NCBI RefSeq assembly: GCF_012396125.1
Contig: NZ_JAAXOX010000004.1
Location: 1 to 64,000 of the forward strand
From: Cellulomonas denverensis
GTDB taxonomy: Bacteria > Actinomycetota > Actinomycetes > Actinomycetales > Cellulomonadaceae
Direction of reading: 5' to 3'
DNA length: 64,000 nt
Numbering within the stretch: position 1 is the stretch's first letter; every line of letters starts with the position of its first letter. The notes beneath the pieces were generated by a model. It did not search any database. It saw only the letters and a program-made list of their open reading frames with translations, and was not told the DNA's origin. Of the stretch, positions 7,178-32,580 are shown in pieces. Position numbers and translations under genes: made by a program.

Positions 7178-7205
7178 CCATCGGCCGAGGGGTCACCGGT
7201 GTGAG
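7178..7205 (-). promoter_or_regulatory. Candidate FliA/WhiG (sigma-28) promoter for the flgB operon
   Basis: Read on the minus strand, CTCA is followed after exactly 16 nt by GCCGATGG. Sigma-28/WhiG promoters are described as TAAA, 15-16 nt, GCCGATAA, so the -10 matches 6 of 8 and the -35 retains the terminal CA-type core. The same arrangement precedes fliC and flgN in this window. The predicted transcript would have a leader of about 70-80 nt before flgB. Confidence 0.7.
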
Positions 7206-7556
7206 GCAGAACGGCGAAAATCGTGGCGCTCGTCCCGGCATTCACAGCAAGGGGTCCGAATTGCCCCGGGATGCCGGATCGCGGGGTGGTTCCGCTAGGT
7301 GGTGAAGCCGCGCCACCACCCTGTCCGCTTCGACCTTTCCACGCAGCTTCGGCAGTGTGCCACCTAGCCACAGCACGATGGTGCATGTCGGGCGGCCGGT
7401 GGCGATCCGACCGTGCGATGACGTGCGGCTAGGTAGTTCCTGTGCGACCTACGCTGCCTGAGTTCGACCCGGGATAGCCCGTGTTCCGCGAGACCTGCCG
7501 ACGTCCCGCCCACCCGATGAGATTGCTCGGCCGTATCCGAACGAAAGCACCTCCAG
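7206..7556. promoter_or_regulatory. Divergent intergenic region with repeated GCTAGGTGG elements
   Basis: This gap between flgB (leftward) and the LPATG protein gene (rightward) has no convincing gene. It contains GCTAGGTGG at 7294-7302, its exact inverse complement at 7360-7368, and an eight-of-nine copy (GCTAGGTAG) at 7428-7436. The GC content is lower than in the flanking genes. The repeats could be operator half-sites for one or both divergent units. No clear housekeeping -10/-35 pair stands out. Confidence 0.35.
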
Positions 7557-8441
7557 ATGACCATCGACTGCCTTCCCGCCACCGGCAACAGCACGCTCCC
7601 GCTCGTCCTTGTCTCGCTCGCGCTGATCACCCTCGGCGTGGTGGCGGTCACAGCGGCCCGCCGCTCACGGCGCGGCCCACGGACGCCGATCGCGATGACG
7701 GCGCTGGTCGCCCTGGCCCTCGGCGCCGGTTCTTGCCTCGCGATCGCCGACAGCGCGCCCGCCCGGGCGGCAACGTCGACCGAGGACGACTGCGCGGGTG
7801 GGACACCGACATCGACACCTGCCCCGAGTGACACAGCACCGGCTCCCAGCCCCAGCCCCGCGAGCCCGGACCCCACCCCCACGCCTTCCGAGCCCAGCCC
7901 GCTCGTCGACTACGCGATCGCCTTCCCCGAGCAGACCATCCCCGAACCGCCGACCGGCATCCCGAACCGCGCCGTGATCAACCTCGAGGTGCGCCCCTAC
8001 GCCCAGAGCCACACGGTGGAGCTGTCGAACACGGGTGAGGTCGACGGCACCGAGCCGATCACCTTGTTCATCCCGGCCCAACCGGACGGCTACTGGACCG
8101 TGCTGGGGGTGTTCGGTCCCGGATCCCAGCCGCTGACGGACGTGACCACCATCGCGGTGGACGGCGGCACGCAGGTGGTCGTCCAGACGCCGCTCGCGAT
8201 CGGCGAGTCGCGCACGTTCGAGATCAGCGTGGTCTACGACCCCGACAACTGGGACCACGTCTTCACCAGCATCGGTTCTGGCCAGCTGGGCGCGCCCAAG
8301 CGGCCCGCGTCCACGCTGGAGATCAGCATCTCGGACGCCACCACCGACGACGTGACCTCGAACGACGTGGCGGTGCTGACCATCCCGGAGTTCCTGATCA
8401 CGATCCCGGATACCGTCGACCCCAATCAGCCCGAGGGCTAG
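7557..8441 (+). CDS. Exported protein with an N-terminal LPATG sorting-signal-like segment
   Basis: No family was recognised for this 294-residue protein. Residues 5-40 are unusual: CLPATGN, then a hydrophobic stretch (LPLVLVSLALITLGVVAVTA) and ARRSRR. That is the exact layout of a C-terminal sortase sorting signal placed at the N terminus. A second hydrophobic segment with AxA (about residues 47-72) looks like a signal peptide or anchor. A Pro/Thr/Ser-rich linker follows (about 78-115), then a roughly 180-residue beta-rich domain with no cysteines. The first ATG after an in-frame TGA at 7518 is the only plausible start, but it has no good ribosome-binding site. It is embedded between flagellar units and convergent with the fliS-linked gene. 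Confidence 0.7.
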   Translation: MTIDCLPATGNSTLPLVLVSLALITLGVVAVTAARRSRRGPRTPIAMTALVALALGAGSCLAIADSAPARAATSTEDDCAGGTPTSTPAPSDTAPAPSPSPASPDPTPTPSEPSPLVDYAIAFPEQTIPEPPTGIPNRAVINLEVRPYAQSHTVELSNTGEVDGTEPITLFIPAQPDGYWTVLGVFGPGSQPLTDVTTIAVDGGTQVVVQTPLAIGESRTFEISVVYDPDNWDHVFTSIGSGQLGAPKRPASTLEISISDATTDDVTSNDVAVLTIPEFLITIPDTVDPNQPEG

Positions 8442-8463
8442 CGCAGGCGCCGGATCAGCCCTC
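8433..8463. terminator. Possible convergent terminator hairpin
   Basis: GAGGGCT and AGCCCTC form a perfect 7-bp stem around a 17-nt loop. It spans the stop codons of the two convergent genes that end at 8441 and 8455. No T-tract is present on either side. Confidence 0.4.
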
Positions 8464-8787
8464 CGCGTCCAGGTACACCGGCAGCGCCGGCGCCCGGGCG
8501 GTGATCTGCTGCACCACCGAGGCCTCCCGGCGGCTCATCGCGGCGGCCGCGGCAGTGCGGCGGGCGAGGTCGAGGTGCCGGGCGAGCAGGGCCTCGGCGC
8601 GGGTCTTGAGTGCCAGCGGCAGCAGGCCCAACCCGGTGGGCGGGGTCCAGCGCGCGGCGGCGGCGACCTCGGCGGTGGACGGCAGGTGGGTGCTGGCCAG
8701 CAGGCGTTCGGCCTCGTCGGCGGCGAGTTCGAGGTCGTCCAGGGCAGTGAGCCAGGCGGCGTCCCAGTCCAGGACCTCAGCCGACAC
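8455..8787 (-). CDS. Small helical protein in the fliT position (possible flagellar chaperone)
   Basis: This 110-residue, Ala/Leu/Arg-rich, wholly helical protein is acidic and has no signal peptide or membrane segment. It overlaps the end of fliS by 11 nt and is the last gene of the fliC-fliD-fliS unit, the place where fliT (FliD chaperone and regulator) sits in enterobacteria. The sequence is too low in complexity to recognise FliT directly. The function is therefore inferred from position, length and helicity. Confidence 0.55.
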   Translation of the reverse strand: MSAEVLDWDAAWLTALDDLELAADEAERLLASTHLPSTAEVAAAARWTPPTGLGLLPLALKTRAEALLARHLDLARRTAAAAAMSRREASVVQQITARAPALPVYLDAEG

Positions 8788-9217
8788 CGAGCACCCCGGT
8801 GGGAGCGCCGAGCGCGGCCTCGCGCTGGGTGGGCAGCTCGGCGGACATGCTGGCGGCGGCCTCGTGCCAGGTGTCGCGCAGCGGGGCGAGCACCCCGCGG
8901 ACCCCGGCGACCCGATCGGCGTCGCCGGTCAGGCCGGCCTCGATCAGTTCGGACAGCGCGAAGGTGTACAGGGCGAGCAGCCCTTCGCCGCCGTCCCAGG
9001 CGTCGACGTCCAGGTCGGCGATCAGCTCGGCGACGATCTGCTGGGCGTGCGCGAGCTGCTGGGTGCCGTCCGGTCGCCGGCCCTCGCGGAGCGCCGACTC
9101 GGCCCGGTCCAGGTCGAGGACCAGCCGGTCGTAGAGCATGGTCAGCAGCTTCGCCGGGCCGGCGGTGGCGACCGCGTCGGCCAGGAAGCGAGAACGATAG
9201 GCGTCGATGCCGGCCAT
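8777..9217 (-). CDS. fliS: Flagellar secretion chaperone FliS
   Basis: This 146-residue FliS binds the C terminus of unpolymerised flagellin and prevents premature assembly. It starts AGIDAYRSRFLADAVATAGP, has the family helix KLLTMLYDRLVLDLDRAE, then LAHAQQIVAELIADLD and a C-terminal helical bundle. The start at 9217 follows the fliD stop by 14 nt. Position between fliD and a small helical gene is the standard order. Confidence 0.93.
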   Translation of the reverse strand: MAGIDAYRSRFLADAVATAGPAKLLTMLYDRLVLDLDRAESALREGRRPDGTQQLAHAQQIVAELIADLDVDAWDGGEGLLALYTFALSELIEAGLTGDADRVAGVRGVLAPLRDTWHEAAASMSAELPTQREAALGAPTGVLGVG

Positions 9218-9231
9218 CCTGGGATCCCCCG

Positions 9232-10587
9232 TCAGTTCGAGTTGTTCGCGTTGAGCTGGGAGATCTGGCTGGTCAGCCAGTCGGACTGCGACTGGAGCTT
9301 CTGCAGCGAGACCTCGAGGGCCGCGTAGGTCTTCACCAGGGCGGCGCGGCGGTCGGTCAGCCGGGTGTCCCAGCTGGCGATCCGGTCGGCCAGGTCGTCG
9401 ACCTCGCCCTGCCACGTGGTGATCTGGCTGGTCAGCGTGCCCTTGGTCTCGTCCGAGGCGGCGGTGGCGACCTTCTCCAGCCCGGCGGCGATCGAGGTGA
9501 TCACCTGCTGGACCTTCGCCGGGTCGGCGTTCATCGCGGCGGTGAACGTCTCCTGGTCGAAGGTGAAGGTGCCGTCCTTGTTCAGCACGATGCCGACCTG
9601 GGCCGCGGAGCTGTCGCCGACCGAGGCGGAGCCCGCCCTGGCCAGTTCCTGCTGCAGCAGCCGGATGGTGGTGTTGCCGGAGAACAGGCCGCCGGTGACC
9701 ACGGTGCCGCCGTCGTCGGCGGTGGAGGTGCTGGTGGCGGTGCGCGAGCTGATCTCGGACAGCACGGTGTTGAGGTTGTTCACCAGGCCGGAGGCGAGCG
9801 AGCTGAGCGCGGTGTCGTTCCGGGTGACGGTGATCGTGGTCGGTTCGGTGCCGGCCTTGACCGCGGTCACCGAGACCCCGGTGGCCAGCTTGTCGAAGGT
9901 GTTGGTCGAGGAGGTCACCACCGACTCGGCGTCGGTGCCGGGCCAGAGTGTGATCTTCGCGTCCGCGGCGGAGCGGATGGACTGGGTGGTCAGGCTCGAC
10001 CCGTCCAGCGGGTTGTCCGCGGTCAGCGTGAAGGCATGGGCGGCGCCGGTCTCGGTGCCGGTGAGCTGGAGCCGGTACTGCGGCTCGGCGGCGGTGCCGA
10101 CGTTCAGCGCGGAGGCCTTGACCCCGGTGCCGTCCGCGTTAAAGGCGGCCAGCACGTCGGTGATGTTGCTGCTGGCCGCGGCGATCGTCCGGGTGGTGCC
10201 GTCCGGGGCGGTCAGCGTGAAGCTGGGGGTGCCGTCGTAGTACTCGGGCAGGGTGTACATCGTGGACTGGGCGGCGGCCGTCGCGTCCACCCGGAAGGTC
10301 AGGGTGGAGGGGGTGGCGCCCTCGCCGACGGTGGCGGTGGCGGCCGCGGTGTCCGAGCTGGTGGCCTTGACCGCCTGCCAGCTGCTCGCGGCGGCGGCGC
10401 TGGTCGCGGCGGTGGCCAGCGAGGCGACCTTGGTGTTCAGCGTCTGCAGCGCGGTCACCAGGGAGGACGTCGAGGTCTTCTTGGACTTCAGCAGCGTCTG
10501 CTGGTTGGCCTCCACGGCCATCAGCTGGTCGATCAGCTCAGTGGTGTTCAGCCCACTGACGAGTCCGTCGATGCCGAGACCGGCCAT
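9232..10587 (-). CDS. fliD: Flagellar filament capping protein FliD (HAP2)
   Basis: This 451-residue cap protein begins AGLGIDGLVSGLNTTELIDQ, the conserved FliD N terminus, and ends with the C-terminal coiled-coil (QKLQSQSDWLTSQISQLNAN). The central region is Thr/Ser/Ala-rich with beta-strand character, as in domains D2/D3 of FliD. The start at 10587 is chosen for the conserved N terminus and an upstream GAGAGGAAA sequence. A strong hairpin separates it from fliC. Confidence 0.95.
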   Translation of the reverse strand: MAGLGIDGLVSGLNTTELIDQLMAVEANQQTLLKSKKTSTSSLVTALQTLNTKVASLATAATSAAAASSWQAVKATSSDTAAATATVGEGATPSTLTFRVDATAAAQSTMYTLPEYYDGTPSFTLTAPDGTTRTIAAASSNITDVLAAFNADGTGVKASALNVGTAAEPQYRLQLTGTETGAAHAFTLTADNPLDGSSLTTQSIRSAADAKITLWPGTDAESVVTSSTNTFDKLATGVSVTAVKAGTEPTTITVTRNDTALSSLASGLVNNLNTVLSEISSRTATSTSTADDGGTVVTGGLFSGNTTIRLLQQELARAGSASVGDSSAAQVGIVLNKDGTFTFDQETFTAAMNADPAKVQQVITSIAAGLEKVATAASDETKGTLTSQITTWQGEVDDLADRIASWDTRLTDRRAALVKTYAALEVSLQKLQSQSDWLTSQISQLNANNSN

Positions 10588-10618
10588 GGCGGTGCGTTTC
10601 CTCTCAGACGATGCGGCG

Positions 10619-10656: not shown

Positions 10657-10672
10657 TCACGAGCAGGTCAGC

Positions 10673-11878
10673 TCACTGCAGGAGCTGCAGCACGCTCTGC
10701 GGGATCGACTTGGCCTGCGCGAGCATGGCCGTGCCGGCCTGGGACAGGATCTGGGCCCGGGTGAACGAGACCATCTCCGACGCCATGTCGGTGTCGCGGA
10801 TCCGGCTCTCCGAGGCGGTCAGGTTCTCGACCGCGACGTTGAGGTTGTTGATGGTGTGGTCGAAGCGGTTCTGGACCGCACCCAGCTGGGAACGGGTCTT
10901 CGACACGTCGGTGATCGCGGCGTCGATCAGGTCGATCGCCTCGGACGCCCCGGACTTCTGGGTGAAGGTCGGGGAGGCGGCGGCCACGGCGGAGGCGGAG
11001 GCGTCCGCCGCCGGCGCGGTGCCGGTGATGACCAGGTCGGTGCCGTCGAAGGCGGCGGTCACGTTGGCGGTGGTGCCGTCGGCCTGGGTGCCGAAGGCGG
11101 CCTTCAGCGCGTCGTTCAGCTTGCCCAGGTCGGAGGTGCCGGCCCCGGTGGCGTCAGCCTTGCTGAACTCGACCGAGGCCAGGTCCAGGGACTTCGAGCC
11201 CACCGAGACGGTGCCGTTGAGCACGCCCAGTGACACGTCGGCGCCGTAGGTGGCGTCGGCGAAGGTGACGGTGCCGGCGGTGCCCGCAACCGCGTTCACC
11301 ACGTCGCCCTTGGAGGCGTCGGAGGCGACGGCGGTCACGTTGATGCCGGAGACGCCCAGGCCCTCCGAGGACAGGCCCGCGGTCCGGGTCAGGTCCACGG
11401 AGATCTTGTCCTGCGCCGAGGTGTTGGCGCCGACCTGGAAGGTGCCGGAGTACTTGCCGTCCAGCAGCTTGGTGCCGTTGAACTGCGTGGTGTCGGAGAT
11501 CCGGGTCAGCTCGGTCTTGAGCTGGTCCAGCTCGTCCTGGATGTTGCCCTTGGCGGTGTCGGACAGACCACCGTCGTTGGCGGCCTGGACCGACAGGGTC
11601 CGCATCCGCTGCAGGATGGAGTGCGTCTCGGTGAGCGCGCCTTCGGCGGTCTGCACGACCGAGATGCCGTCCTGGGCGTTGCGCACGGCCTGCTGGGTGC
11701 CACCGATCTGGGCGCGCAGGCCCTCGGAGATCGCCAGACCGGCAGCGTCGTCCGCCGCGCGGTTGATGCGCAGGCCGGAGGACAGCTTCTCCAGCGAGCG
11801 GCTCAGGTCGTTCTGCGTGTTGGACAGGTTGCGGTACGAGTTGAGTGCCGCGAGGTTCTGGTTGATCGACAGACCCAT
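10673..11878 (-). CDS. fliC: Flagellin FliC
   Basis: This 401-residue flagellin is the filament subunit. The N-terminal D0/D1 segment is canonical (GLSINQNLAALNSYRNLSNT, LSSGLRINRAADDAAGLAIS) and so is the C terminus (ENLTASESRIRDTDMASEMV, ending SIPQSVLQLLQ). The middle third (about residues 165-310) is an Ala/Gly/Thr/Ser-rich variable domain, a possible glycosylation surface. A strong GGAGGA ribosome-binding site precedes the ATG by 7 nt. A FliA-like promoter match lies 57 nt upstream. It is a single copy in this window. Confidence 0.97.
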   Translation of the reverse strand: MGLSINQNLAALNSYRNLSNTQNDLSRSLEKLSSGLRINRAADDAAGLAISEGLRAQIGGTQQAVRNAQDGISVVQTAEGALTETHSILQRMRTLSVQAANDGGLSDTAKGNIQDELDQLKTELTRISDTTQFNGTKLLDGKYSGTFQVGANTSAQDKISVDLTRTAGLSSEGLGVSGINVTAVASDASKGDVVNAVAGTAGTVTFADATYGADVSLGVLNGTVSVGSKSLDLASVEFSKADATGAGTSDLGKLNDALKAAFGTQADGTTANVTAAFDGTDLVITGTAPAADASASAVAAASPTFTQKSGASEAIDLIDAAITDVSKTRSQLGAVQNRFDHTINNLNVAVENLTASESRIRDTDMASEMVSFTRAQILSQAGTAMLAQAKSIPQSVLQLLQ

Positions 11879-11934
11879 GATCGTGTCCTCCGTGAGTGGG
11901 GTCGTAGGTGGCCCATCCGTGGGCTCACCCGGTC

Positions 11935-11962
11935 ACATCGGCCGGGCGTGGACCCGGCTGAG
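11935..11962 (-). promoter_or_regulatory. Candidate FliA/WhiG (sigma-28) promoter for fliC
   Basis: On the minus strand CTCA is followed after 16 nt by GCCGATGT, giving a leader of about 50 nt before the fliC ATG. Both hexamer identity and spacing match the element before flgB. Flagellin is the classical late, FliA-dependent gene, which supports the reading of the motif. Confidence 0.75.
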
Positions 11963-11981
11963 GGATTGGGTGCGGGGAGTT

Positions 11982-12887
11982 TCAGACCGCGTAGGTCTGC
12001 TGCTCCGCCGGGGTGGTGGTGTGCTGGGTGGGCAGCACCGGGGCGGCGGCCGCGGACATCGCCGCGCGGCTGGCCACCGCGGCGAAGTAGGACCGGCGCC
12101 GGCGCTCGGCCACCCCGTCCGGGCGGGCGGCCACCGGCACCAGCTCCGGGTCGAGGCTGGCGTTCAGGCCGTCGCGCATCAGGCCCAGCCCCTCGGTGCG
12201 CAGCTGGCTGATCCGGGACTGGGTGACGCCCAGCTCCTCGGCGAGTTCGGCCACCGAGCGGTCCTGCAGGAACAGGCCCTCGATCACCAGCCGCAGCCGG
12301 TCGGGCAGGGTCTCGACCGCGGCACGCAGGTAGCGCAGCCGCTCGCCCATCAGGACGTTGTCCTCCGGGCCGGGCGCCTCGTCCCGGACCAGGTCGGCCA
12401 CCGGGTGCACCGCGGCGTCCATCGACAGCACCCGGCGCTCGGCGTCCTGGCGGGCCTGGTCGACGGCGGCCACGTCGGTGCCCAGCTCGCCGGCCAGCTC
12501 GTCCCGGGACGGGGTGCGGCCGAGGGTGGCGGTCAGCCGGTCGTGGGCGGCACCGAGCTCGCGGGCCCGGTGCCGGGCGCCGCGGCTCGCCCAGTCCATC
12601 GATCGCAGCTCGTCGATCAGGGCGCCCCGGATCCGCAGCGCCGCGTACCGGGCGAAGGGCACGCCGGTCTCGGCGTCGTAGGCCCGGGCGGCCAGCACCA
12701 GGGCGAGGTGCCCGGCGGAGACCAGATCCTCCCGGGCGACCGTGGCGGGCACCCGGGCGAGCACCTCGCTGACGTGGTAGCCCACCAGGGGCATGTGCGC
12801 CACGACCAGGTCGTCGTGGGCGGCGTTTCCGGCGGCTGCGTTGTTCACCCCCCGGTTCTCGGCCCCGGCATCAATGCGCTTGAGCAA
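11982..12887 (-). CDS. fliA: Flagellar/WhiG-type RNA polymerase sigma factor FliA (sigma-28)
   Basis: This sigma-70 family, group 3 factor (301 residues) directs late flagellar transcription. Region 2 includes LVSAGHLALVLAARAYDAET and FARYAALRIRGALIDELRSM. Region 3 includes GRTPSRDELAGELGTD. Region 4 has LPDRLRLVIEGLFLQDRSVA and a helix-turn-helix (ELAEELGVTQSRISQLRTEG). A 50-residue Ala/Arg/Thr-rich tail follows. The start is uncertain: TTG at 12887 or GTG at 12848, neither with a clear ribosome-binding site, and both upstream of the conserved domain. It is divergent from flgN. The shared gap holds a cAMP-receptor-type site and a large inverted repeat. Confidence 0.92.
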   Translation of the reverse strand: MLKRIDAGAENRGVNNAAAGNAAHDDLVVAHMPLVGYHVSEVLARVPATVAREDLVSAGHLALVLAARAYDAETGVPFARYAALRIRGALIDELRSMDWASRGARHRARELGAAHDRLTATLGRTPSRDELAGELGTDVAAVDQARQDAERRVLSMDAAVHPVADLVRDEAPGPEDNVLMGERLRYLRAAVETLPDRLRLVIEGLFLQDRSVAELAEELGVTQSRISQLRTEGLGLMRDGLNASLDPELVPVAARPDGVAERRRRSYFAAVASRAAMSAAAAPVLPTQHTTTPAEQQTYAV

Positions 12888-12908
12888 TTCACATGAACTT
12901 CATGGCGT

Positions 12909-12965: not shown

Positions 12966-12988
12966 AAGCTCCCCCATTCCACCGGGTG

Positions 12989-13073: not shown

Positions 13074-13101
13074 TTCACATCCCGGCCCGGGTGACCGATG
13101 G
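13074..13101 (+). promoter_or_regulatory. Candidate FliA/WhiG (sigma-28) promoter for the flgN operon
   Basis: TTCA is followed after 16 nt by ACCGATGG, one base away in each hexamer from the flgB element. The predicted start would lie about 35-40 nt before the flgN ATG, whose AAGGAGAA ribosome-binding site falls inside the leader. Confidence 0.6.
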
Positions 13102-15089: not shown

Positions 15090-15970
15090 CCGCGATCGGA
15101 CGGGTGACGCATCTGACGGTGCGCAACTCGACGCTGGCCAACCTGCAGACCAACCTGCAGAAGATGGCCGACCTGCAGGCGCAGGCGTCCTCGGGCAAGA
15201 CGATCAACCGTCCCTCGGACGACCCGGCCGGCGCCTCGGACATGCTCCGGCTGCGCGGCGAGCAGCGGATGCTGGACCAGTACTCCCGCAATGCCGCCGA
15301 CGGGAACTCCTGGCTGTCCACCGTGGACAACGCCCTGACCACCTCGCTGGCCGACATGCGCCGGGTGCGGGTGCTGACCCTGCAGGGCGGTGACGCCGCC
15401 CTCGGCGAGACCTCCCGGATCGCGCTCGCCGAGGAGATCGACGGTCTCAAGGCGGACCTGCTGCGGCAGGCGAACACCACGTACCTGGGCCGCAGCGTCT
15501 TCGCCGGGACCACCGCCGCCCCGGCCTTCGAGGACGACGGCACCTTCCGCGGGGTGACCGGCGGCCAGGTGACCCGCACGGTCGGCGACGGCACCACCGT
15601 CCGGGTGGACTCCACCGGCAGTGCGGTCTTCGGCGACGGGCCGGACTCGGTCTTCGCCCGGCTCGACGCCATCTCCGCCACGCTGCGCGCCGGGGGCGAC
15701 CCGACCGATCAGGTCGACGCCCTGGACGAGCACATCACCGCGATGCTCACCGAGGTCGCCTCGGTGGGTGCGCGCACCAACCAGATCGAGACGGCGCAGA
15801 GCCGGATCACCGACCAGACGCTGACCAGCAAGACGCGGCTGTCGGAGATCGAGGACATCGACCTGGCGCAGATCATCCTGGACCTGCAGACCCAGGAGGT
15901 CGCCTACAAGGGCGCCCTCGGGGCCGCCGCCAAGGTCCTCCAGCCGACTCTCCTGGACTACCTGCGATGA
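15086..15970 (+). CDS. flgL: Flagellar hook-associated protein FlgL (HAP3)
   Basis: This 294-residue protein is the second hook-filament junction protein and is flagellin-like at both ends. The N-terminal helix contains RNSTLANLQTNLQKMADLQA and SSGKTINRPSDDPAGASDML; the C-terminal helix ends IDLAQIILDLQTQEVAYKGA. It overlaps flgK (ATGA) and fliW (ATGA). Length and both termini are typical, and the short variable domain distinguishes it from a second flagellin. Confidence 0.96.
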   Translation: MTAIGRVTHLTVRNSTLANLQTNLQKMADLQAQASSGKTINRPSDDPAGASDMLRLRGEQRMLDQYSRNAADGNSWLSTVDNALTTSLADMRRVRVLTLQGGDAALGETSRIALAEEIDGLKADLLRQANTTYLGRSVFAGTTAAPAFEDDGTFRGVTGGQVTRTVGDGTTVRVDSTGSAVFGDGPDSVFARLDAISATLRAGGDPTDQVDALDEHITAMLTEVASVGARTNQIETAQSRITDQTLTSKTRLSEIEDIDLAQIILDLQTQEVAYKGALGAAAKVLQPTLLDYLR

Positions 15971-16377
15971 CCACGACGCTGATCACCACTCCCCTCGTCC
16001 TGCCGACCGCCGTGCACCTGCGCACCGCGATGCCCGGGCTGGACGGCCACACCGACTTCGAGGTGTCCGCGCTGGACGACGGCGGGTCGCTGTACGCGCT
16101 GCGCTCGGCGCCGGAGGGCCTGCGGCCGGTGCGGCTGTTCGTCGTCGACCCCGAGCCCTACTTCCCGGACTACCACCCGCGGATCGGCGCCGACCTGCAC
16201 GCACTGCTCGGCACCGACCGGCTGCGGGTGCTGGTGGTGGTGCGCCCGGCCCAGGGCACCCAGCCGCCGACCGCCAACCTGCTCGCCCCGCTGCTGGTGG
16301 ACCCCGCCACCGGCGCCGCCGCGCAGACCGTGCTGTCCGAGGACTGGCCGCTGCGCGCGCCCCTCGGCCGCCCCTGA
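15967..16377 (+). CDS. fliW: Flagellar assembly factor FliW
   Basis: This 136-residue FliW-family protein has the DPEPYFPDYHPRIGADLHAL block and the LRVLVVVRPAQGTQPPTANL block that mark the family. FliW binds flagellin and antagonises the translational repressor CsrA in other bacteria. The ATG overlaps the flgL stop. The usual partner csrA, often directly downstream, is absent here; the next gene 26 nt on encodes an EAL-HDOD protein instead. Confidence 0.9.
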   Translation: MTTTLITTPLVLPTAVHLRTAMPGLDGHTDFEVSALDDGGSLYALRSAPEGLRPVRLFVVDPEPYFPDYHPRIGADLHALLGTDRLRVLVVVRPAQGTQPPTANLLAPLLVDPATGAAAQTVLSEDWPLRAPLGRP

Positions 16378-16403: not shown

Positions 16404-17603
16404 ATGACCCTCGCCGGCACCGGCAACGTGACCGTGCTGCGCCAGCCGGTGGTGCAGCACGACCGGAGCGTCTACGGCTATGCGGTCCAGGTGCGGGTGA
16501 CCGGCCCGGACGGGCAGCCGCTGCCCGACCAGGCCGCCGAGTCGCACGCGGACGCCGAGTACGCCGCCCTGGACCTGTCCGGGTTGGCTTCCGACCGGCC
16601 GGTGCTGTTGCGCGCCACCGCCGGGGTGCTGGCCGGCACCACCTCGATCTGGGGTGACCCCGAGCGCCTGGTGCTGGAGATCACCCCCACCCTGGCCCGG
16701 CACCCGGAGATCGACGCGCTCGCCGACCTGGCCCGGTCCCGTGGCTCCCGGCTGGCCCTGGCCGACTACGACGGCTCCGCGCCCCAGGACCGGCTGCTGG
16801 ACCGGGTCGCCCTGGTCAAGATCGACCTGGCCCGGACCGACGACCAGCTCGCCCTGCTGGTCGACCGCGCGCACCACGCCGGCGCCACCGTGATCGCCGA
16901 GCGGGCCGACTCCACCGAGCGGGTCACCCGGGCCGGCGACCTGGGCGCGGACCTGGTGCAGGGACCGCTGTTCCAGCGCGACCAGACGCCGGTGCGGCGC
17001 AGCTTCAGCGCCGGCGAGCTGCAGTGCCTGGAGCTGCTGCGGATCCTGTCCGCGGACCAGGTCGACCAGACCGCGGTGGTCACCACGGTGGCCGCCGATC
17101 CGGAGCTGTCGATGCGGGTGCTGCACCTGGTGAACTCCTCCGCCTTCGGGCTGCGCACCGAGGTGGACTCGGTCCGGCAGGCGGTGGTCCTGGTCGGTCC
17201 CCGGCAGCTGCACGCGCTGGCGATCGCCTCGCTGATCGACGCCCGGCCGAACACCGTCGCCGCGCTGTGGACCGTGCTGACCCGGGCGCTGACCTGCCGG
17301 GCGCTGGCCGGGGACGATGCCGGGTACACCGTCGGGCTGCTGTCCGCGGTGGCCGCCCAGCAGGCGATCGCGCTCACCGATCTGGTCGAGCGCACCGGCG
17401 TCTCCGACCAGCTGTCCGCCGCGCTGCTGCGACACGAGGGGCACCACGGCCGGGCGCTGGCCGCGGTGCTCGCCCACGAGGAGAACGACCCCGAGGCGGT
17501 CGCCGCCACCGGGCTGGAGCCCTGGGACGTGGCGCACGCCTACCTGGCCGCGGTGCCGCAGGCGCTGGCCACGGCGACGTCGCTGGCGTTCGGCGGGAGC
17601 TGA
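16404..17603 (+). CDS. Degenerate EAL-HDOD signalling protein at the end of the flgN operon
   Basis: This 399-residue YuxH-type protein has an N-terminal EAL-like domain (about 1-195) and a C-terminal HDOD domain (about 200-390). The EAL domain is degraded: the EAL motif reads YAVQVR, the metal-binding DDFG motif reads ADYDG, and KID and AERAD remain. It is therefore unlikely to hydrolyse c-di-GMP, though it could bind it. The HDOD fingerprint DPELSMRVLHLVNSSAFG is intact. A GGAGGA site lies 5-6 nt upstream. It is co-directional with fliW and probably co-transcribed, implying a signalling or assembly-control role. A distant paralogue is at 31209-32510. Confidence 0.88.
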   Translation: MTLAGTGNVTVLRQPVVQHDRSVYGYAVQVRVTGPDGQPLPDQAAESHADAEYAALDLSGLASDRPVLLRATAGVLAGTTSIWGDPERLVLEITPTLARHPEIDALADLARSRGSRLALADYDGSAPQDRLLDRVALVKIDLARTDDQLALLVDRAHHAGATVIAERADSTERVTRAGDLGADLVQGPLFQRDQTPVRRSFSAGELQCLELLRILSADQVDQTAVVTTVAADPELSMRVLHLVNSSAFGLRTEVDSVRQAVVLVGPRQLHALAIASLIDARPNTVAALWTVLTRALTCRALAGDDAGYTVGLLSAVAAQQAIALTDLVERTGVSDQLSAALLRHEGHHGRALAAVLAHEENDPEAVAATGLEPWDVAHAYLAAVPQALATATSLAFGGS

Positions 17604-21478: not shown

Positions 21479-22587
21479 CCGCCCCGCTGCGCATCTGCGT
21501 GATCGCCCCGCTCCGGTTCCCGATCCGCCGCCCGCACGCCGGTGGGCTGGAGTCCGCGGTGTGGAACGAGGTCCGCGAGCTGCGCGCCCGCGGCCACCGG
21601 GTCTCGCTGATCGCGGTGGCCGGGTCGGACTTCCTGGACGACGGGCCGCCGGAGTTCGTGCTGCCCGCCCTGGCCTGGCCGGAGGGGATGCGGCCGACCG
21701 ACTCGACCTACCCGCCGGACTACCTGACCCGCTCGGTGCCCGCCCTGGACCGGGCGCTCGACCTGGTGCGCGAGCACGCCGACCGGTTCGACGTGATCGC
21801 CAACCACTGCCTGCACGGACTGCCGCTGCGCCGGTCCGCGGAGCTCGGGGTGCCGATGGTCTGCACCCTGCACACCCCGCTGGAGCCGGAACTGGTGGAC
21901 GCGGTGGCCCGGGCCGGTGCGGTGCGCTTCCTGGCGGTGAGCGAGCACACCCGCGACCAGTGGCGGGCCGCCGGGGTGGACGCCACCGTGCTGCCCAACG
22001 GGATCGCCGCGCAGGCCTGGCCGCTCGGCCCCGGCGGTGACGGCCTGGTGTGGTCCGGGCGGATCGTGCCGGAGAAGGCGCCGCACCTGGCGATCGCGGT
22101 GGCCCGGTCGCTCGGGATGCCGCTGACCCTGGCCGGCCGGATCGGTGACCGGGAGTACGCCGAGCAGGTGGTGCTGCCGCGGGTCGGCGGGCAGGTGCGC
22201 TACGCCGGGTTGCTGGATCAGCCCGCGCTGGCCGAACTGATCGGCGCCAGTGCCTGTTCCCTGAGCACCCCGGCGTGGGCGGAACCCTTCGGCCTGGTCG
22301 GCCCGGAGGCGCTGATGTGCGGCACCCCGGTCGCGGCCTTCGGCACCGGTGGGATCACCGAGATCGCCCGGCGCTCGGCCGGGATGATCGCGGTGCCCCC
22401 CGGGGACGTGGCCGCCCTGGCCGAGGCCGCCGGGCACCTGGTCGCGCACACCCGCCCGGCCGACCGGGCCCGGATCCGGTCCGCCGCGCTCGCCACCTGG
22501 TCGCTGGACGCCCGGACCGACGCCCTGGAACGGATCTTCACCGAGTTGATCACCGGCCCCCGCCCCACCGTGGAGCTGAGTGCATGA
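21475..22587 (+). CDS. GT4 glycosyltransferase
   Basis: This 370-residue canonical GT4 enzyme has the N-terminal PHAGGLESAVWNEVRELRAR, VVWSGR-type phosphate-binding loop (LVWSGRIVPEKAPHLAIAV) and the E-x7-E donor motif AEPFGLVGPEALMCGTPVAA. Retaining transfer from a nucleotide sugar in the cytoplasm is expected. It overlaps its neighbours by ATGA on both sides, so the four plus-strand GT genes form one translational unit. The acceptor is not predictable. Confidence 0.9.
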   Translation: MTAPLRICVIAPLRFPIRRPHAGGLESAVWNEVRELRARGHRVSLIAVAGSDFLDDGPPEFVLPALAWPEGMRPTDSTYPPDYLTRSVPALDRALDLVREHADRFDVIANHCLHGLPLRRSAELGVPMVCTLHTPLEPELVDAVARAGAVRFLAVSEHTRDQWRAAGVDATVLPNGIAAQAWPLGPGGDGLVWSGRIVPEKAPHLAIAVARSLGMPLTLAGRIGDREYAEQVVLPRVGGQVRYAGLLDQPALAELIGASACSLSTPAWAEPFGLVGPEALMCGTPVAAFGTGGITEIARRSAGMIAVPPGDVAALAEAAGHLVAHTRPADRARIRSAALATWSLDARTDALERIFTELITGPRPTVELSA

Positions 22588-26850: not shown

Positions 26851-29800
26851 TCGGCGACCCGCTCCACCGCCAGTTCGTCCGCCCGGCCCGGCTCGGTGAG
26901 CAGCAGTTCGGCGGTGGTGCGCAGCTCCCACCGTCCGGCGGCCTGGGCCAGTCCGCGGGCCAGCCCGGCCAGGTGGGTGGCGTGCACCGTGGCGGTGGGG
27001 CCGGTGCCCTCGACCCACCAGTCCACCGGCACGCCGTCCACCCGGAGGTCCTCGTGCTCGATCCAGCTGATCGGCGCGCCGGGCAGCAGGTCGCGGACCG
27101 CCTCCGGGGTGACGGACAGGGCGCCGTCGTCCGGGTCGTCCACCAGGCCGTCGGCCAGCTCGGAGCTCAGCGGCAGGTCCAGCACGGTGGCGATCCGCTC
27201 CGGGTCGCCACCGCCGGTCACCGGGAGCTGGGCGGCCAGGTCGGTGCGCTGCCACCACATCGGCGCCGGGGCGACCGCCGCGTCCTCGGCGTGCACCAGC
27301 ACCACCCGGTCGGCGGCCACCAGGGCGGGCAGCAGTTCCACCGGCACCGGGTCGTCGGCCGCCGCCAGCGCGGACCAGACCGCGGCGGACCAGCTGACCG
27401 GCAGGGTCTCCCCCACCCGGGCCACGCCGCGCAGCACCCGCTCCCAGTCCGCGGCGGGCACCTGGTCGGCCCGGTCGACGGCGCCGAGCCCGCGGAGCAC
27501 CGCCGGGTCGAGTCCGGCCAGCAGGCCGGGGGCGGCGGGCAGCAACCGGCGCAACGCGGGGTCGGCCTCGGGTCCGGCGAACGGCCGGTCCAGCCCGAGC
27601 CCGGCCCGTTCGCGCAGCCACCACAGGGTGTAGCTCGGTGCGCTCCCCGGACCGTCGGCGGCCCGCACCGGGTCCAGCAGGGCGTCCCGGGTGGCACCGG
27701 GGCGGGCGAGGGCGGCGAGGGCCTCGGCCCAGCGGTCCGGGTGCACGGCATCCAGGTCGGCCACCGCCAGCAGCGGTTCCAACACCGCGCCGGTGCCCAG
27801 CGACCCGGCCAGCGCCTCCCGGTACTCCGCCCAGCCGTCCAGCTGCTCGGCCAGCAGGTCGTCCACCTCGTCCTCGGGGCCGTCCCCGGTCACCCGGTCC
27901 TCGGCCCGCAGCACGACCAGCCCGGCCCGCACCCCGGCGGCGGTCAGCACCCCGGCGCCCCAGCGGTCGAGCTGATCGCCGTCGACCTCGCCCAGCACCC
28001 GCGGGTCCAGCAGCTCGGCGGCCGGCGACCCGGGCAGCAGCAGGCCGTGCGCCGGTGCCGGTTCGCCGTCGGCGTCGCGCAGGGTCAGCACCCCGAACAC
28101 CGCGCGGTCCACCGGCACCGGGCGACCGTCCCGGCCGTCCGCCCCGGCGGCCCGCAGCAGGTCGAGCACCGCCTCCGACACCCGCTCGGCGGTGTCCGCG
28201 TCCTCCTCGGCGCTGTCCAGCACCGCCTGGCGGACCGCGGGGTGGTCCAGCAGCACCTCCGGGCCGGCGGGCAGCGCGCCGAGCCGTTCCAGCACCGGGT
28301 GCGCCGCCCGCGGGTGGACCAGGCGCAGCCCCAGGCCGTCCAGCCGGTCGGTGTCCACCCCGGGCCCGGGCAGCAGCAGGCCGCGCGCGCCCCGGACCAC
28401 CCGGCCGTCGGCCAGCGGCACCGGCAGGGCGGCCAGCAGCTCGCGGGTGCGCGGGTCGGTGACCGCCTCGGCCAGGGCGGCATACAGGTCGTGCCACCGG
28501 GCGGGGTCGTCGGCGGTGGCGGGCAGTTCCTCGATCAGATCGGCGGCGTCCCGCAGCTCGACGCCGAGCAGCCGGGCGGCGGCGGTACGGCCGGGTGGCA
28601 CCGCGACCAGCGCGTGGAACCAGGGCGACAGGGCCGCGGCCAGGGCGGGGGCGCCGTCGCCGGTCAGCCCGACCGCCCGGACCGGGGCGATCGGCTCGGG
28701 ATCCGGTCCGGCGGGCAGCAGCAGCGGGGTGTGCGCCAGCCGGTCGATCAGCAGCTCGCGCAGCTGCCGGTCCAGCTCGCTGCCGGCCAGGCCGGTGGGC
28801 GCCAGCAGCAACGGGTCCTCACCGGCGGCGGCCAGGTCGGCGGCCCACCGGGCGTACAGCTCCGCGGCCAGGGCGAGCAGGGCGTCGGTGGCCGCCCCCG
28901 GGGCGACATGTCGCCTGGTCGGGTCCAGGGGCAGGGTGGCCACCAGCAGCGCAGGCAGGTCCAACACGTCATCGGTCGGGGTCGGCGCGTGCACCACCCG
29001 GGGCCAGGACGGACCGGGCTCCGCCTCGCCGAACAGCGCGGCGACCGGGTCGTCCACCAGGGCCCGGCGGGGCACCGCCCAGGTGATCCGCCAGCCGCGG
29101 CGGCCGCGTTCCTCCACCGGTCGCCCGGCCATCGCCGCCGGGGGCAGCTCCCCGGTGGCGGTGGCCCGGTACCAGCGTTCGTCCAGCCCGGCGATCCGGC
29201 GCAGCCGCCCGGCCCGCTCGTCCTCCACCACGATCTCGGTCAGCGCGGGCAGCGCGAGCAGCAGCGGATCGCCGACCTCGGCCAGCATCGCCGACACCGC
29301 CTCGGCCGCCTGGTCGTCGCGCAGCTCCAGCACCACGGTGGTGTCGTAGCCGGGTTCCGGGCGGTCCTCGGCGGGGAACGGCAACCGCAGTGCGGGCACC
29401 GCACCCTCCCGGCGGTCCAGCTCGGCGGCCTGCTCCGGGCCCAGCGCCGCCACCGCCGCGCGGGTCCGGTCGGCGGAGAACTCCACCGCCCCGTCCGCGG
29501 AGGCGACCGTCACCCGGTCGGCCACCGCACGCACCGCCGCGAAGCCCACCCCGAACCGGCCGACCAGCGCGGCGCCGCTCGCGTCGTCCCGGGAGGTGGA
29601 CACCCGCATCGCGGCCATCGAGGCCACCCCGGCGGCGTCCAGCGGCGCACCGGTGTTCGCGGCCACCAGCCGGTCACCGGTCAGCCGGAGCAGCAACCGC
29701 CCGGGCCGGCCGGAGCGGGCGGCGGCGTCCGCGGCGTTCTGGGCGAGTTCGACCACCACCCGGTCGCGGTAGTACCCGCGGGCGTGGTCCTCCTCGGTGT

Positions 29801-29891
29801 TGGCGTCCTCGCGCAGCCGGGCGGGGTCGGTCCGCCACGTCCCCAGCACGCGCTCCCGGACGGCGCGCGTGTCGAAGACGTCGGTGCTCAC
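26847..29891 (-). CDS. Sacsin-like GHKL/HSP90-type ATPase protein
   Basis: This 1014-residue protein has an N-terminal HSP90-like ATP-binding fold. VVVELAQNAADAAARSG is the N-box (E-x3-N-x-A-D), LLRLTGDRLVAANTGAPLDA the G1-like region and GRFGVGFAAVRAVAD the lid glycines. The remaining 800 residues are Ala/Asp/Leu-rich with a conserved-looking but unnamed architecture; no HEPN or J domain is evident. Actinobacteria commonly carry such a gene beside DUF3027. The GTG start overlaps the DUF3027 stop, and the MFS GTG overlaps its own stop. A chaperone-like role is suggested by the fold only. Confidence 0.82.
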   Translation of the reverse strand: MSTDVFDTRAVRERVLGTWRTDPARLREDANTEEDHARGYYRDRVVVELAQNAADAAARSGRPGRLLLRLTGDRLVAANTGAPLDAAGVASMAAMRVSTSRDDASGAALVGRFGVGFAAVRAVADRVTVASADGAVEFSADRTRAAVAALGPEQAAELDRREGAVPALRLPFPAEDRPEPGYDTTVVLELRDDQAAEAVSAMLAEVGDPLLLALPALTEIVVEDERAGRLRRIAGLDERWYRATATGELPPAAMAGRPVEERGRRGWRITWAVPRRALVDDPVAALFGEAEPGPSWPRVVHAPTPTDDVLDLPALLVATLPLDPTRRHVAPGAATDALLALAAELYARWAADLAAAGEDPLLLAPTGLAGSELDRQLRELLIDRLAHTPLLLPAGPDPEPIAPVRAVGLTGDGAPALAAALSPWFHALVAVPPGRTAAARLLGVELRDAADLIEELPATADDPARWHDLYAALAEAVTDPRTRELLAALPVPLADGRVVRGARGLLLPGPGVDTDRLDGLGLRLVHPRAAHPVLERLGALPAGPEVLLDHPAVRQAVLDSAEEDADTAERVSEAVLDLLRAAGADGRDGRPVPVDRAVFGVLTLRDADGEPAPAHGLLLPGSPAAELLDPRVLGEVDGDQLDRWGAGVLTAAGVRAGLVVLRAEDRVTGDGPEDEVDDLLAEQLDGWAEYREALAGSLGTGAVLEPLLAVADLDAVHPDRWAEALAALARPGATRDALLDPVRAADGPGSAPSYTLWWLRERAGLGLDRPFAGPEADPALRRLLPAAPGLLAGLDPAVLRGLGAVDRADQVPAADWERVLRGVARVGETLPVSWSAAVWSALAAADDPVPVELLPALVAADRVVLVHAEDAAVAPAPMWWQRTDLAAQLPVTGGGDPERIATVLDLPLSSELADGLVDDPDDGALSVTPEAVRDLLPGAPISWIEHEDLRVDGVPVDWWVEGTGPTATVHATHLAGLARGLAQAAGRWELRTTAELLLTEPGRADELAVERVAE

Positions 29892-30763
29892 CGCGACGAC
29901 TCGGTGGACCCCTCGGCGGGATCGGTCGCCGCGGCGGGCTCCCCCGCGTCGTCGGCGGCCGGGCCCTCGGCGGGCGGGTCCACGTCCACCGCAGCGGCAC
30001 CGGTCCCGGCGGCGGTGACCTCCACCAGCAGCTCGTCCACCAGCGGCGCCGGGTCGGGCCACTCGGACGGCCGGTCCGGCACGTCGGTCTCGGAGTGCGC
30101 CCCGCAGCCGTGCTGCAGCGCCACCACCTTGCCGTCGTCCGGCGACCACTCGTTGGCGCACACCCCGAAGACCGCCCCGAGCGGGCCCTGCAACGGGATC
30201 AGGAAGCCGCAGGTCAGGCACGGTTCGGCGGAGGCGACCGACGCGGCGGTGGCCGGGCCCTGGCGGCCGCGGTACCAGCGGTCGGCGGCCTGGTTCAGCC
30301 CGACCGGGGACAGCACCCGCTGCCGGGCGAGCGCCAGCTCGTCGATCGCGACCTCGTCCAGTTCCGGGTCGCCGGTGGGCGTCCAGCCGGGCTCCAGCCG
30401 CGGGTCGTCCGGCTTGAACGGCAGCACGTCGCCCGGGCCGATGTCGCCGGGGCGCAGCCGCTCGTCCCAGGGCAGCCAGGCCGGGGCCAGCACCGCGTCG
30501 TCGCCGGGCAGCAGCACCGCCTCGCAGACGGTGGCCACCCGGCCGCGCGGCACCCGGGACAGCGTGACGGTCCACACCCAGCCCCGGTAGCCCTTCGCGG
30601 TGCAGGCGAAGCGGTGCGAGACCAGCCGGTCCTCGTCGATGGTGTACCCGAGGTGCTCGCCGACGTGCTCGGGCTGCTCGGCGATCTCCACCGCCGCGGC
30701 ACGGGCCAGCTCCACCGCACCGGTCAGCACCGGCTCCTTGCTGCGCGCCGCGGCGGCCATCAC
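29888..30763 (-). CDS. DUF3027 protein
   Basis: This 291-residue protein matches the actinobacterial DUF3027 family: VSHRFACTAKGYRGWVWTVT, then ARAPAWLPWDER-like APAWLPWDERLRPGD, and a Cys-rich centre (EPCLTCGFLIPL ... FGVCANEWSP ... HGCGAHSE) that could bind zinc. A Glu/Ala/Asp-rich disordered tail follows residue 240. Adjacent start codons GTG (30763) and ATG (30760) are both possible; the first overlaps the cold-shock gene stop as GTGA. The cold-shock-DUF3027 pairing is widespread in actinobacteria and suggests an RNA-linked role, but no activity is known. Confidence 0.88.
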   Translation of the reverse strand: MMAAAARSKEPVLTGAVELARAAAVEIAEQPEHVGEHLGYTIDEDRLVSHRFACTAKGYRGWVWTVTLSRVPRGRVATVCEAVLLPGDDAVLAPAWLPWDERLRPGDIGPGDVLPFKPDDPRLEPGWTPTGDPELDEVAIDELALARQRVLSPVGLNQAADRWYRGRQGPATAASVASAEPCLTCGFLIPLQGPLGAVFGVCANEWSPDDGKVVALQHGCGAHSETDVPDRPSEWPDPAPLVDELLVEVTAAGTGAAAVDVDPPAEGPAADDAGEPAAATDPAEGSTESSR

Positions 30764-31143
30764 GCCTCCAGGTCGTCGGCGACGGCCCGCAGCAGGGCGG
30801 CGACCTGGGTGGCGCGGCCCTTCTCCGGGTACCGGCCGCGGCGCAGCTCGTTGCCGACCCGGTCCAGCACCTTGATCAGGTCCTCGACGATGACGGCCAT
30901 GTCATCGGCGGGCTTGCGGGTGGCCCGGACCACGGACGGCACCGGGTCCAGGATCTTGACGGAGAGCGCCTGCGGACCGCGGCGGCCGTCGGCCACGCCG
31001 AAGTCGACCCGGGTGCCGGGCTTGGGCGTGCCGATCCCCGCGGGCAGCGCGGAGGCGTGCAGGAAGACCTCGCTACCGTCCTCGGCGGCGATGAAGCCGA
31101 ATCCGCGGTCGGCGTCGAACCACTTGACCTTGCCGGTGGGCAC
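30760..31143 (-). CDS. CspB-type cold-shock protein with C-terminal extension
   Basis: This 127-residue protein has a cold-shock domain in residues 1-65 with both RNP motifs: VKWFDADRGFGFI (RNP1, KGFGFI-like) and VFLHASAL (RNP2). A 60-residue helical, charged C-terminal extension follows, as in the long actinobacterial form. The GTG at 31143 is chosen because AGGGGAA lies 5 nt upstream and gives a conserved-looking N terminus. Single-stranded nucleic acid binding is expected. It is the first gene of the DUF3027/ATPase/MFS unit. Confidence 0.93.
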   Translation of the reverse strand: MPTGKVKWFDADRGFGFIAAEDGSEVFLHASALPAGIGTPKPGTRVDFGVADGRRGPQALSVKILDPVPSVVRATRKPADDMAVIVEDLIKVLDRVGNELRRGRYPEKGRATQVAALLRAVADDLEA

Positions 31144-31208
31144 TGAGTTCCCCTGGGTGTTCGTCGGGGCCGCGACCGGCATCGCCGGGCGGCACGTACC
31201 GTCCCAGG

Positions 31209-32510
31209 TTACCGGTCGGGGACCTCCGGAGGGACCCGAGTGTCCGGGCTGACCGGCGGCGCGGCACGACGGGCCGCCACCACGGGCTGATAGACGGTCG
31301 CCAGGAGGGCCCGGGCCTCGCGCAGGGCGGTCAGGTAGACCATCGAGATCTGCAGTCCGGTGTACGGCGCCGGGATCACCGGCGACCGCTGCGAGCCCAT
31401 CGCGTCCAGGTAGTCGTCCAGCACGTCGCAGGCCTCCACCACCGCCACACTGGGTGCCCGGCGGCGCAGCTGCGGGTCGAGTTCGGCCACCGGCACCGAC
31501 AGCAGATCGCTCATCAGCCGGACCAGGGCCTCGGTGGACGCCTCCAGCGCGTCGTGCGGGGCCAGGATCTCCGCCGCCCGGGTGCGCGCCAGCGCGGTGA
31601 GCGGGATCTCGTCGTCGTGGTGCCCGGCGGTGGCCAGCACCTCCAGCACCAGCATCGCCCGCAACCGTTCCCGGCCGAGCAGCACCAGCGCCTGGTGCAG
31701 GTGCCGGACGGTGCGCCCCGCCCCGGAGACCGAGTTGACGATCCGGAACACCTGCAGCGCGATCGCCGGATCGGCCGCGGTCAGCCGGGCCAGCCGCCGG
31801 TAGGACACCTGGGGGTCGCCGAGCTGGACCAGCAGCCGCCCGGCGACCACCGCGTGGTGGGCCAGCGCGGGCCGGGTGAACACCACCGGGCGGCGGAAGT
31901 AGTAGCCCTGGAACAGCGGGAAGCCGGCGTCCTGGGCGGTGCGCAGGTCCTCCTCGGTCTCCACCCGCTCCGCCACCAGCGCCGCCAGTGGTGCCGCCGC
32001 CCGCAGCTGTGCGGCGAAGTCGGCCAGCCCGTCGCCGAGCTGCGACATGTCGACCTTCACGTAGTCCGCCAGCGGCAGCAGCGGCCAGCGCGGATCGTCC
32101 GGCGCCATGTCGTCCAGCGCGATCCCGAAGCCCCGCGCGCGCAGCGCGACGATCCCGGCCCGCACCTCGTCGTCCGGCGGGACGTGCTCCAGCACCTCCA
32201 GCACCACCCGGTGCGGGTCGAGGGCCACCGGCAGCTCGTCCACCAGGAACGACCGCGGCACGTTGACGAACAGGTCACCGTGGCCGGCCAGGTCGTCCAC
32301 CCCGAACGACGTCAGGGTGGCCACGATCACCGAGGCGGTGGCCCGGTTGTCGTCGATGGTCTCCACCCCGCCCAGGCCGGAGGTCTCCGCGGTGGCCGAC
32401 GGCCGGAACAACAGTTCGTGCCCGATGGTCCGGCCGAGCACGTCGTAGATGCCCTGGCGCGCGACACACACCTGGTGCGCCGGCCCGGGCAGCTGACGGG
32501 GATGCGGCAT
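31209..32510 (-). CDS. EAL-HDOD signalling protein with intact EAL residues, behind a FliA-like promoter
   Basis: This YuxH-type protein of 433 residues (448 if the ATG at 32555 is used) has an EAL domain at about 15-220. It keeps the expected ligands: HELLFR, FVNVP, VLEVLE, LDDMA, VKVDMS, AERVE and FQGYYF. An HDOD domain follows (about 225-410) with DPAIALQVFRIVNS. It could bind or hydrolyse c-di-GMP, unlike the paralogue at 16404. The start at 32510 is preferred: it has GGAGGGA upstream, and the FliA-like promoter overlaps the alternative ATG. It lies outside the flagellar locus between unrelated genes. Confidence 0.87.
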   Translation of the reverse strand: MPHPRQLPGPAHQVCVARQGIYDVLGRTIGHELLFRPSATAETSGLGGVETIDDNRATASVIVATLTSFGVDDLAGHGDLFVNVPRSFLVDELPVALDPHRVVLEVLEHVPPDDEVRAGIVALRARGFGIALDDMAPDDPRWPLLPLADYVKVDMSQLGDGLADFAAQLRAAAPLAALVAERVETEEDLRTAQDAGFPLFQGYYFRRPVVFTRPALAHHAVVAGRLLVQLGDPQVSYRRLARLTAADPAIALQVFRIVNSVSGAGRTVRHLHQALVLLGRERLRAMLVLEVLATAGHHDDEIPLTALARTRAAEILAPHDALEASTEALVRLMSDLLSVPVAELDPQLRRRAPSVAVVEACDVLDDYLDAMGSQRSPVIPAPYTGLQISMVYLTALREARALLATVYQPVVAARRAAPPVSPDTRVPPEVPDR

Positions 32511-32551
32511 CGGTGTGGCGATCCCTCCGGACGACAGTGGTACGTCCGGTT

Positions 32552-32580
32552 CCATCGGCAGCCGACCGGCGTGACCTGAG
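32552..32580 (-). promoter_or_regulatory. Candidate FliA/WhiG promoter for the second EAL-HDOD gene
   Basis: On the minus strand CTCA is followed after 17 nt by GCCGATGG, the same hexamers as the flgB element with one extra spacer base. The transcript would begin near 32545, just inside the longer reading frame, which is why translation from 32510 is favoured. Confidence 0.55.

Follow-up and report, generated by a model that had tools for sequence, protein, structure and literature searches.

The first 64,000 nucleotides (nt) of contig NZ_JAAXOX010000004.1 of Cellulomonas denverensis (assembly GCF_012396125.1; hereafter the window, whose base 1 is the contig's base 1 and whose G+C content is 74.5%) carry flagellar genes, among them the sigma factor gene fliA, behind promoter-like sites made of a CTCA element and a GCCGAT element. 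We propose that sites of this kind come in two sub-forms, each read for the most part by one of two sigma-factor paralogs that form a cascade from WhiG to FliA; from the sequence comparisons below, we put the probability of this reading at roughly 0.65. Form A, CTCA-N16-GCCGAT, stands before flagellar units and would probably be read by FliA. Form B, usually CTCAAG with a spacing of 17, stands before type IV pilus units and before fliA, and its reader would probably be a WhiG ortholog encoded on a separate contig, C15. WhiG is placed above FliA because fliA bears the pilus-type form; WhiG would thus turn on pili and fliA, and FliA would turn on flagella. The positions and conservation of the sites, their spacing classes and the presence or absence of the sigma genes were established directly, and from these we infer which sigma factor is paired with which form.

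Five sites of the window were read directly from the sequence. The flgB operon is preceded by CTCA-N16-GCCGATGG (7178-7205, minus strand), which is kept in relatives, and fliC, followed by fliD and fliS, by CTCA-N16-GCCGATGT (11935-11962, minus strand). The flgN-flgK-flgL-fliW-EAL/HDOD unit has TTCA-N16-ACCGATGG (13074-13101, plus strand), with similar sites upstream of flgN in relatives, some of them with GTCA, and a gene for an EAL-HDOD protein has CTCA-N17-GCCGATGG (32552-32580, minus strand), kept in orthologs. The fifth site, which the original prediction had overlooked, is CTCAAG-N15-GCCGAGAA (12856-12884, minus strand) before fliA; it ends 7 nt before the GTG start, is conserved in relatives, and lies in a divergent region common to the fliA and flgN promoters.

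The two forms differ in their usual spacing when the best site of each same-genus region is tallied, with the spacing counted from CTCA. In 27 flgB regions the spacing was 16 in 24, 15 in two and 17 in one (three of the 27 sites were poor, with two mismatches), and where the site had no more than one mismatch (24 regions), it stood 75-86 nt from the start codon. The 19 fliC regions gave 16 in 15, 15 in three and 14 in one, the last being a poor site. Taken together, a spacing of 17 occurred in 1/46 of the flgB and fliC regions and AG after CTCA in 0/46, whereas it was 17 in 23 of 27 fliA regions (AG or AC after CTCA in 24; three poor) and in 24 of 25 pilT regions (AG in 23). In the pilus clusters of ten genomes, where the pilus genes were named by eye via the orthologs of this genome, a pattern-limited scan found a spacing of 17 at 24 of 29 sites and 16 at the other five.

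The fliA site sits close to its gene in a manner shared with pilT. In the alignment of fliA upstream regions, both boxes are kept and the GTG is mostly kept while the spacer varies; therefore, the TTG start further upstream that the list of open reading frames offers for fliA is unlikely. The pilT layout (L022/L166) is similar, with a GTG a few nt 3' of the -10 element. Judging from the predicted transcription starts, the fliA and pilT messages are probably leaderless, beginning at their GTG codons.

Both candidate readers are encoded in the genome. The product of fliA (11982-12848, minus strand, GTG start at 12848) contains Pfam sigma-70 regions 2, 3 and 4 and has FliA_WhiG (TIGR02479) as its best NCBIfam model, scoring below the curated cut-off of that model (167.5 vs 189.6 bits). 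We regard it as a divergent member of the family, the name FliA resting on its domains, its best match, its place in the flagellar cluster and its absence, along with FliF, from nine same-genus genomes. Among named organisms, its nearest relatives are the FliA proteins of C. triticagri, at 89% in the best segment, and of Cellulomonas sp. ACRRI, at 86%, followed by other Cellulomonas. A second close FliA copy is present in two same-genus genomes (G006:C1:2403213-2404076, 59%; G011:C1:1463244-1464122, 58% identity). The second sigma gene is the WhiG ortholog on C15 (L196:3723-4793), which scores 356.9 bits against the NCBIfam WhiG equivalog cut-off of 343. Its best matches of known structure are 6pfj (7.6e-90) and 6pfv, both Streptomyces WhiG. 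It is flanked by an xerC-like gene and rpsB-tsf-like genes, an order also known from Streptomyces.

Genomes without fliA show what happens to the sites when FliA is missing. Nine of the 36 same-genus genomes (own included) have neither a FliF match nor a close FliA (G002, G003, G010, G018, G019, G022, G023, G024 and G033; G003 and G033 are single-contig assemblies), and in each of them the FliA query best matches a sigma gene (7.8e-27 to 1.3e-30). A WhiG-type sigma match to the same query was found in at least 34 of the 36 genomes. The pilT site is kept, with at most one mismatch and a GTG within a few nt, in all eight fliA-less genomes from which pilT was retrieved, and at least one site of the class precedes a pilus gene in all seven from which the pilus cluster was retrieved. 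Since the sites persist in these genomes, their reader there would be a sigma factor other than FliA. When the fliA-less label is mapped onto a tree of 30 pilT loci, five changes are required, of which supported branches force at least four. Matches with a spacing of 16 average 9.4 per genome in the 27 genomes with fliA vs 5.1 in the nine without (p=0.0004), while matches with a spacing of 17, obtained by subtraction, average 10.1 vs 11.2 (p=0.46).

The main rival to WhiG control of fliA is autoregulation of fliA: FliA alone would read every site of the class here, its own gene included, and WhiG would matter only in the fliA-less relatives. CTCA and GCCGAT are common to both forms, the divergent region holds both the fliA and the flgN promoters, the EAL-HDOD spacing differs among close relatives, and some fliC sites combine CTCAAG with a spacing of 16, all of which would suit a single reader. 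Against it stand the near absence of a spacing of 17 and of AG from the flgB and fliC regions set beside their prevalence before fliA and pilT, and the retention of pilT and pilus-cluster sites together with a WhiG-like sigma match in fliA-less genomes. We consider this rival unlikely, at somewhat under one chance in four. The original prediction had named fliA as the reader, which is probable for the flagellar form; as the sole reader it is not supported, since pilus sites persist in same-genus genomes that lack a close FliA, and contig C15 carries a true WhiG gene.

Several observations weigh against the division of labor between FliA and WhiG. First, the forms are not pure: the best spacing is off-type in 4/27 fliA, 4/19 fliC and 3/27 flgB regions, and in C. 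denverensis itself pilM has a spacing of 16 while a NIT-HAMP gene and a LuxR-type gene have 17. Mixed sites beyond the tallied set, namely CTCAAG with a spacing of 16 before fliC in L214 (C. endophytica), L224, L225 and L235, and CTCAAG with a spacing of 17 before flgB in two rows from other families (L101, L105), slightly lower our confidence in the two-form reading. Second, when the WhiG family model was applied to three genomes, the two fliA-less ones fell under the cut-off (326.6 and 342.1 vs 343), and among the matches listed there was no WhiG-type match for G007 and G013. Third, the drop in spacing-16 matches partly reflects the loss of the flagellar operons that bear these sites, and the genomes are not independent; the drop links spacing 16 to flagella and is by itself no proof of the reader. 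Finally, the ranges of the two sigma factors may overlap, and in flagellated species sites of either form, the one before fliA included, may be read by FliA.

By sequence criteria, the sites of the window are sigma-28 (FliA/WhiG) class promoters, for which PMC8325347 gives the consensus TAAA / GCCGATAA. Their -10 elements resemble this and lie about 15 nt from a TAAA-like -35 element, because CTCA-N16 is equivalent to TCAN-N15 and thus to the canonical sigma-28 spacing, with C replacing A in the -35 element. The GCCGAT core is conserved, the second A of the -35 element is C, and the final -10 bases are mostly other than AA. Such sites are placed before flagellar or chemotaxis operons at flgB, fliC, flgN, flbD-motA-motB, fliM and cheA.

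We searched the 4.02-Mb assembly for the strict pattern CTCA-N15-17-GCCGAT and classified all 37 matches by means of a simple gene caller that uses codon usage and was trained on genes of the window, counting a match as upstream if it was intergenic and at most 150 nt before a same-strand gene. Sixteen of the 37 matches were upstream (12 of 30 and four of the other seven), 17 lay within called genes, and four were intergenic, either more distant or with no following gene visible. Only 2.9% of 29,372 position-strands sampled from the window and 40 kb of contig C19 qualify as upstream, which predicts about one of 37. A control pattern with both boxes reversed in place had none of its 16 matches upstream; as it contains TAG and is depleted in coding sequence, its total is no fair background, and position rather than number was used as the test.

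The 16 targets comprise flgB, fliC, flbD-motA-motB, fliM, cheA, a chemoreceptor-like gene, a Cache-HAMP gene and the NIT-HAMP gene (the last two seen only partially), together with EAL-HDOD, pilB, pilA, pilM, pilT and genes for a VanY-type carboxypeptidase, a LuxR-type regulator and a copper-ATPase-like protein. Thirteen suit motility, pili, sensing or cyclic di-GMP (c-di-GMP), and three have no obvious fit. The spacing is 16 at flgB, fliC, flbD, fliM, cheA, the chemoreceptor-like gene, Cache-HAMP, VanY and pilM, and 17 at EAL-HDOD, NIT-HAMP, pilB, pilA, pilT, LuxR and the copper gene; the flgN and fliA sites deviate by one or two letters and fall outside the strict set. The original prediction was right that promoters of this class are common to flagellar units and genes elsewhere. 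It had placed a single unit outside the flagellar locus, whereas many lie elsewhere, four pilus genes among them, and it had suggested a genus-specific form, which is not supported, as flgB and fliC sites of this form, with no or one mismatch, also occur in named genomes of Sanguibacter, Flavimobilis and Demequina.

The genes for the VanY-type carboxypeptidase (L029:865-1470, minus strand) and the LuxR-type regulator (L030:937-1467, minus strand) are thus also preceded by a promoter of the class. The site before the copper-ATPase-like gene (L009), still counted among the 16, is probably a chance match; a palindrome in its spacer resembles a metal-regulator operator. We rejected GCCGAA as the main -10 form, as it had 16 genome matches vs 37 for GCCGAT and only three of the 16 were upstream. 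One of these three precedes what is, by eye, a receptor-like gene. A CTCA-N17-GCCGAA site lies 37 nt before a BldC/excisionase-like gene (L152, named by eye), possibly by chance.

Two further explanations concern whether the sites are promoters at all. CCGATGG could be a start-codon context whose ATG serves translation, and the mechanical list of open reading frames does begin flgN and EAL-HDOD at this ATG; we rejected this very improbable reading because the ATG is not conserved, relatives showing GATAG, GATCG or GATCA before flgN, flgB, fliC or EAL-HDOD with CTCA and the CCGA core kept, and because later starts follow Shine-Dalgarno-like stretches (by eye). Chance matching in a GC-rich genome, to which the 17 matches inside genes and the unenriched trimmed pattern CTCA-N14-18-GCCGA (nine window matches vs 5.4 expected, equaled in 11/100 shuffles) lend some color, was dismissed as the least probable of all, since position and spacing are conserved before orthologs in up to 27 genomes and the upstream placement far exceeds expectation. 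The four copies originally reported were found in place and exceed chance in full length, CTCA-N14-18-GCCGATG giving three window matches vs 0.30 expected (0/100 shuffles reach three) and TTCA-N14-18-ACCGATG one vs 0.02 (2/100 shuffles reach one), and the matches are not scattered at random over coding sequence.

The EAL-HDOD gene (31209-32510, minus strand, ATG at 32510; gene call with Pfam EAL and HDOD) belongs, by its conserved site, to the regulon, and would probably tune c-di-GMP at the same time. The second half of its EAL domain aligns with BlrP1, an EAL protein of known structure. Its site is the only one of the four originally reported to have a spacing of 17, typical of pilus sites. 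Six orthologs with 77-79% identity keep CTCA and GCCGAT with a spacing of 16, a disagreement that also counts against a strict division by spacing; a seventh (61%) has GTCGAT, and among nine more distant rows (L099-L107) the full site is present in two, both with a spacing of 17. Because the spacing is 17 here and 16 in close relatives, its reader may be either FliA or WhiG. An apparent hairpin overlapping the Shine-Dalgarno sequence of this gene was not seen, by eye, in the orthologs and was dropped. A cold-shock-domain gene (30760-31182, minus strand) follows closely and may share the unit. A second EAL-HDOD gene (16404-17603, plus strand; Pfam), within the flagellar locus and not mentioned in the original prediction, lies 3' of fliW in the flgN-flgK-flgL-fliW unit, so the window's two EAL-HDOD genes may each be driven from a promoter of the class.

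A second layer of control is suggested by hairpins in the leaders. The flgB leader carries two CsrA-type hairpins with an ACGGA loop (7155-7171 and 7133-7147, both minus strand), in which GGA and A-N-GGA, respectively, are invariant in 32/32 aligned leaders. The fliC leader has GCCC-ACGGAT-GGGC (11911-11924, minus strand), with A-N-GGA invariant in 21/21 leaders and the stem paired in 20/20 distinct rows. A leader scan found another ACGGA hairpin before flbD-mot (L122 2478-2493, plus strand), so that A-N-GGA in a hairpin loop, as expected of a CsrA site, occurs in the flgB (twice), fliC and flbD-mot leaders; none was found in the five other leaders scanned (flgN, EAL-HDOD, a chemoreceptor, pilA and pilM). 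The flgB and fliC hairpins recur outside the genus. Weighing against them, the stems are nearly invariant and show almost no covariation (one compensatory cell in fliC, none in flgB); the case for CsrA sites therefore rests on the invariant GGA loops. With csrA present in the genome and fliW in the window (15967-16377, plus strand; Pfam), CsrA would bind the flgB, fliC and flbD-mot messages as a translational brake, with FliW as its likely antagonist. FlgM gave no family match in this genome in a search that was positive in E. coli and B. subtilis, which agrees with the report, in PMC10746217, that FlgM is absent from later actinobacterial classes.

These features can be set beside known systems. 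In the FliA (SigD) regulons of E. coli and Bacillus, as here, a sigma factor of this class recognizes a GCCGATAA-like -10 element and controls flagella and chemotaxis together; here, in contrast, FlgM has no match, and the flgB operon too is under a promoter of the class. The flagellar promoters of Actinoplanes missouriensis reportedly read CTCA(N15-17)GCCGAA (Jang 2016); the -35 element and the spacing are alike, but the -10 element ends in GAT here. Loci of Actinoplanes FliA relatives gave too few matches for comparison with this consensus. According to PMC8325347, WhiG-like sigmas serve both the flagella and the type IV pili of A. missouriensis. The same source describes a close parallel, the WhiG regulon of the unicellular actinobacterium Rubrobacter, where promoters of the class with mapped starts precede type IV pilus operons and genes for diguanylate cyclases and phosphodiesterases: five of 12 mapped promoters stand before the latter, a direct precedent for the EAL-HDOD gene, and three within the pilus cluster. 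Rubrobacter differs in pairing WhiG with the c-di-GMP anti-sigma factor RsiG, whereas C. denverensis has WhiG and a separate FliA, a CTCA -35 element and flagellar targets; RsiG (PF22802) had no match in this genome in a search without a positive control, the control genomes giving none either. CsrA-FliW-flagellin control, as described for B. subtilis and Campylobacter, likewise involves csrA, fliW and an A-N-GGA hairpin in the flagellin leader, while here hairpins also occur in the flgB (two) and flbD-mot leaders.

The available parts of PMC10733313, PMC13293333 and PMC11064477 give no promoter consensus. Among the matches listed from literature on flagellar control in Actinoplanes and Cellulomonas, FliA/WhiG, WhiG loci, CsrA-FliW and EAL-HDOD (titles and abstract starts, with most subscription papers outside the scope), we found no description of the two-form split, and among those on CsrA-FliW control nothing on such hairpins in actinobacterial flgB leaders.

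The remaining features of the window concern the gene assignments. The gene flgB (6750-7097, minus strand) was named by its place before flgC and fliE and by a weak rod-domain match: its long open reading frame scored 19.5 bits vs a Flg_bb_rod cut-off of 20.7, and the trimmed protein of 115 amino acids had no match in Pfam. Downstream lie flgC, fliE, fliF, fliG, fliH and fliI (Pfam, gene calls), and further genes of the flagellar set, fliK, flgD, flbD, motA, motB, fliM, csrA and cheA, are on contig C19 (Pfam). The flagellin gene fliC (10673-11878, minus strand) was identified by Flagellin_N and Flagellin_C, and the fliC, flgN and EAL-HDOD products exceed the Pfam cut-offs. The interval 7098-7973, between flgB and a gene at 7974, is long and without a confident gene; it holds a class-like match (7664-7690, plus strand) that points away from flgB and, with the next called gene 284 nt away, is outside the set of 16. 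Another class-like match (22240-22265, minus strand) is antisense within a gene.

The promoter class is already known; new are the two-form split, the fliA promoter in the pilus-type form and the CsrA-type hairpins in the flgB, fliC and flbD-mot leaders. The whole picture would be one in which two sigma-28 paralogs divide one promoter alphabet by a single base of spacer, with CTCAAG helping; WhiG would run type IV pili and turn on a leaderless fliA in a non-sporulating swimmer, and FliA would run flagella under a CsrA brake on the basal-body, motor and filament messages. In this completeness the picture is tentative, and we hold it at a little short of even odds. WhiG is the sporulation sigma factor of Streptomyces; if the picture is true, WhiG would also act in a motile actinobacterium from which sporulation is not known. 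It would also suggest how related sigma factors escape cross-talk, and would provide a candidate top tier of flagellar control in actinobacteria without a recognizable FlgM. As the pilT tree calls for four or more switches between having and lacking fliA, the genus offers a set of natural experiments on this division.

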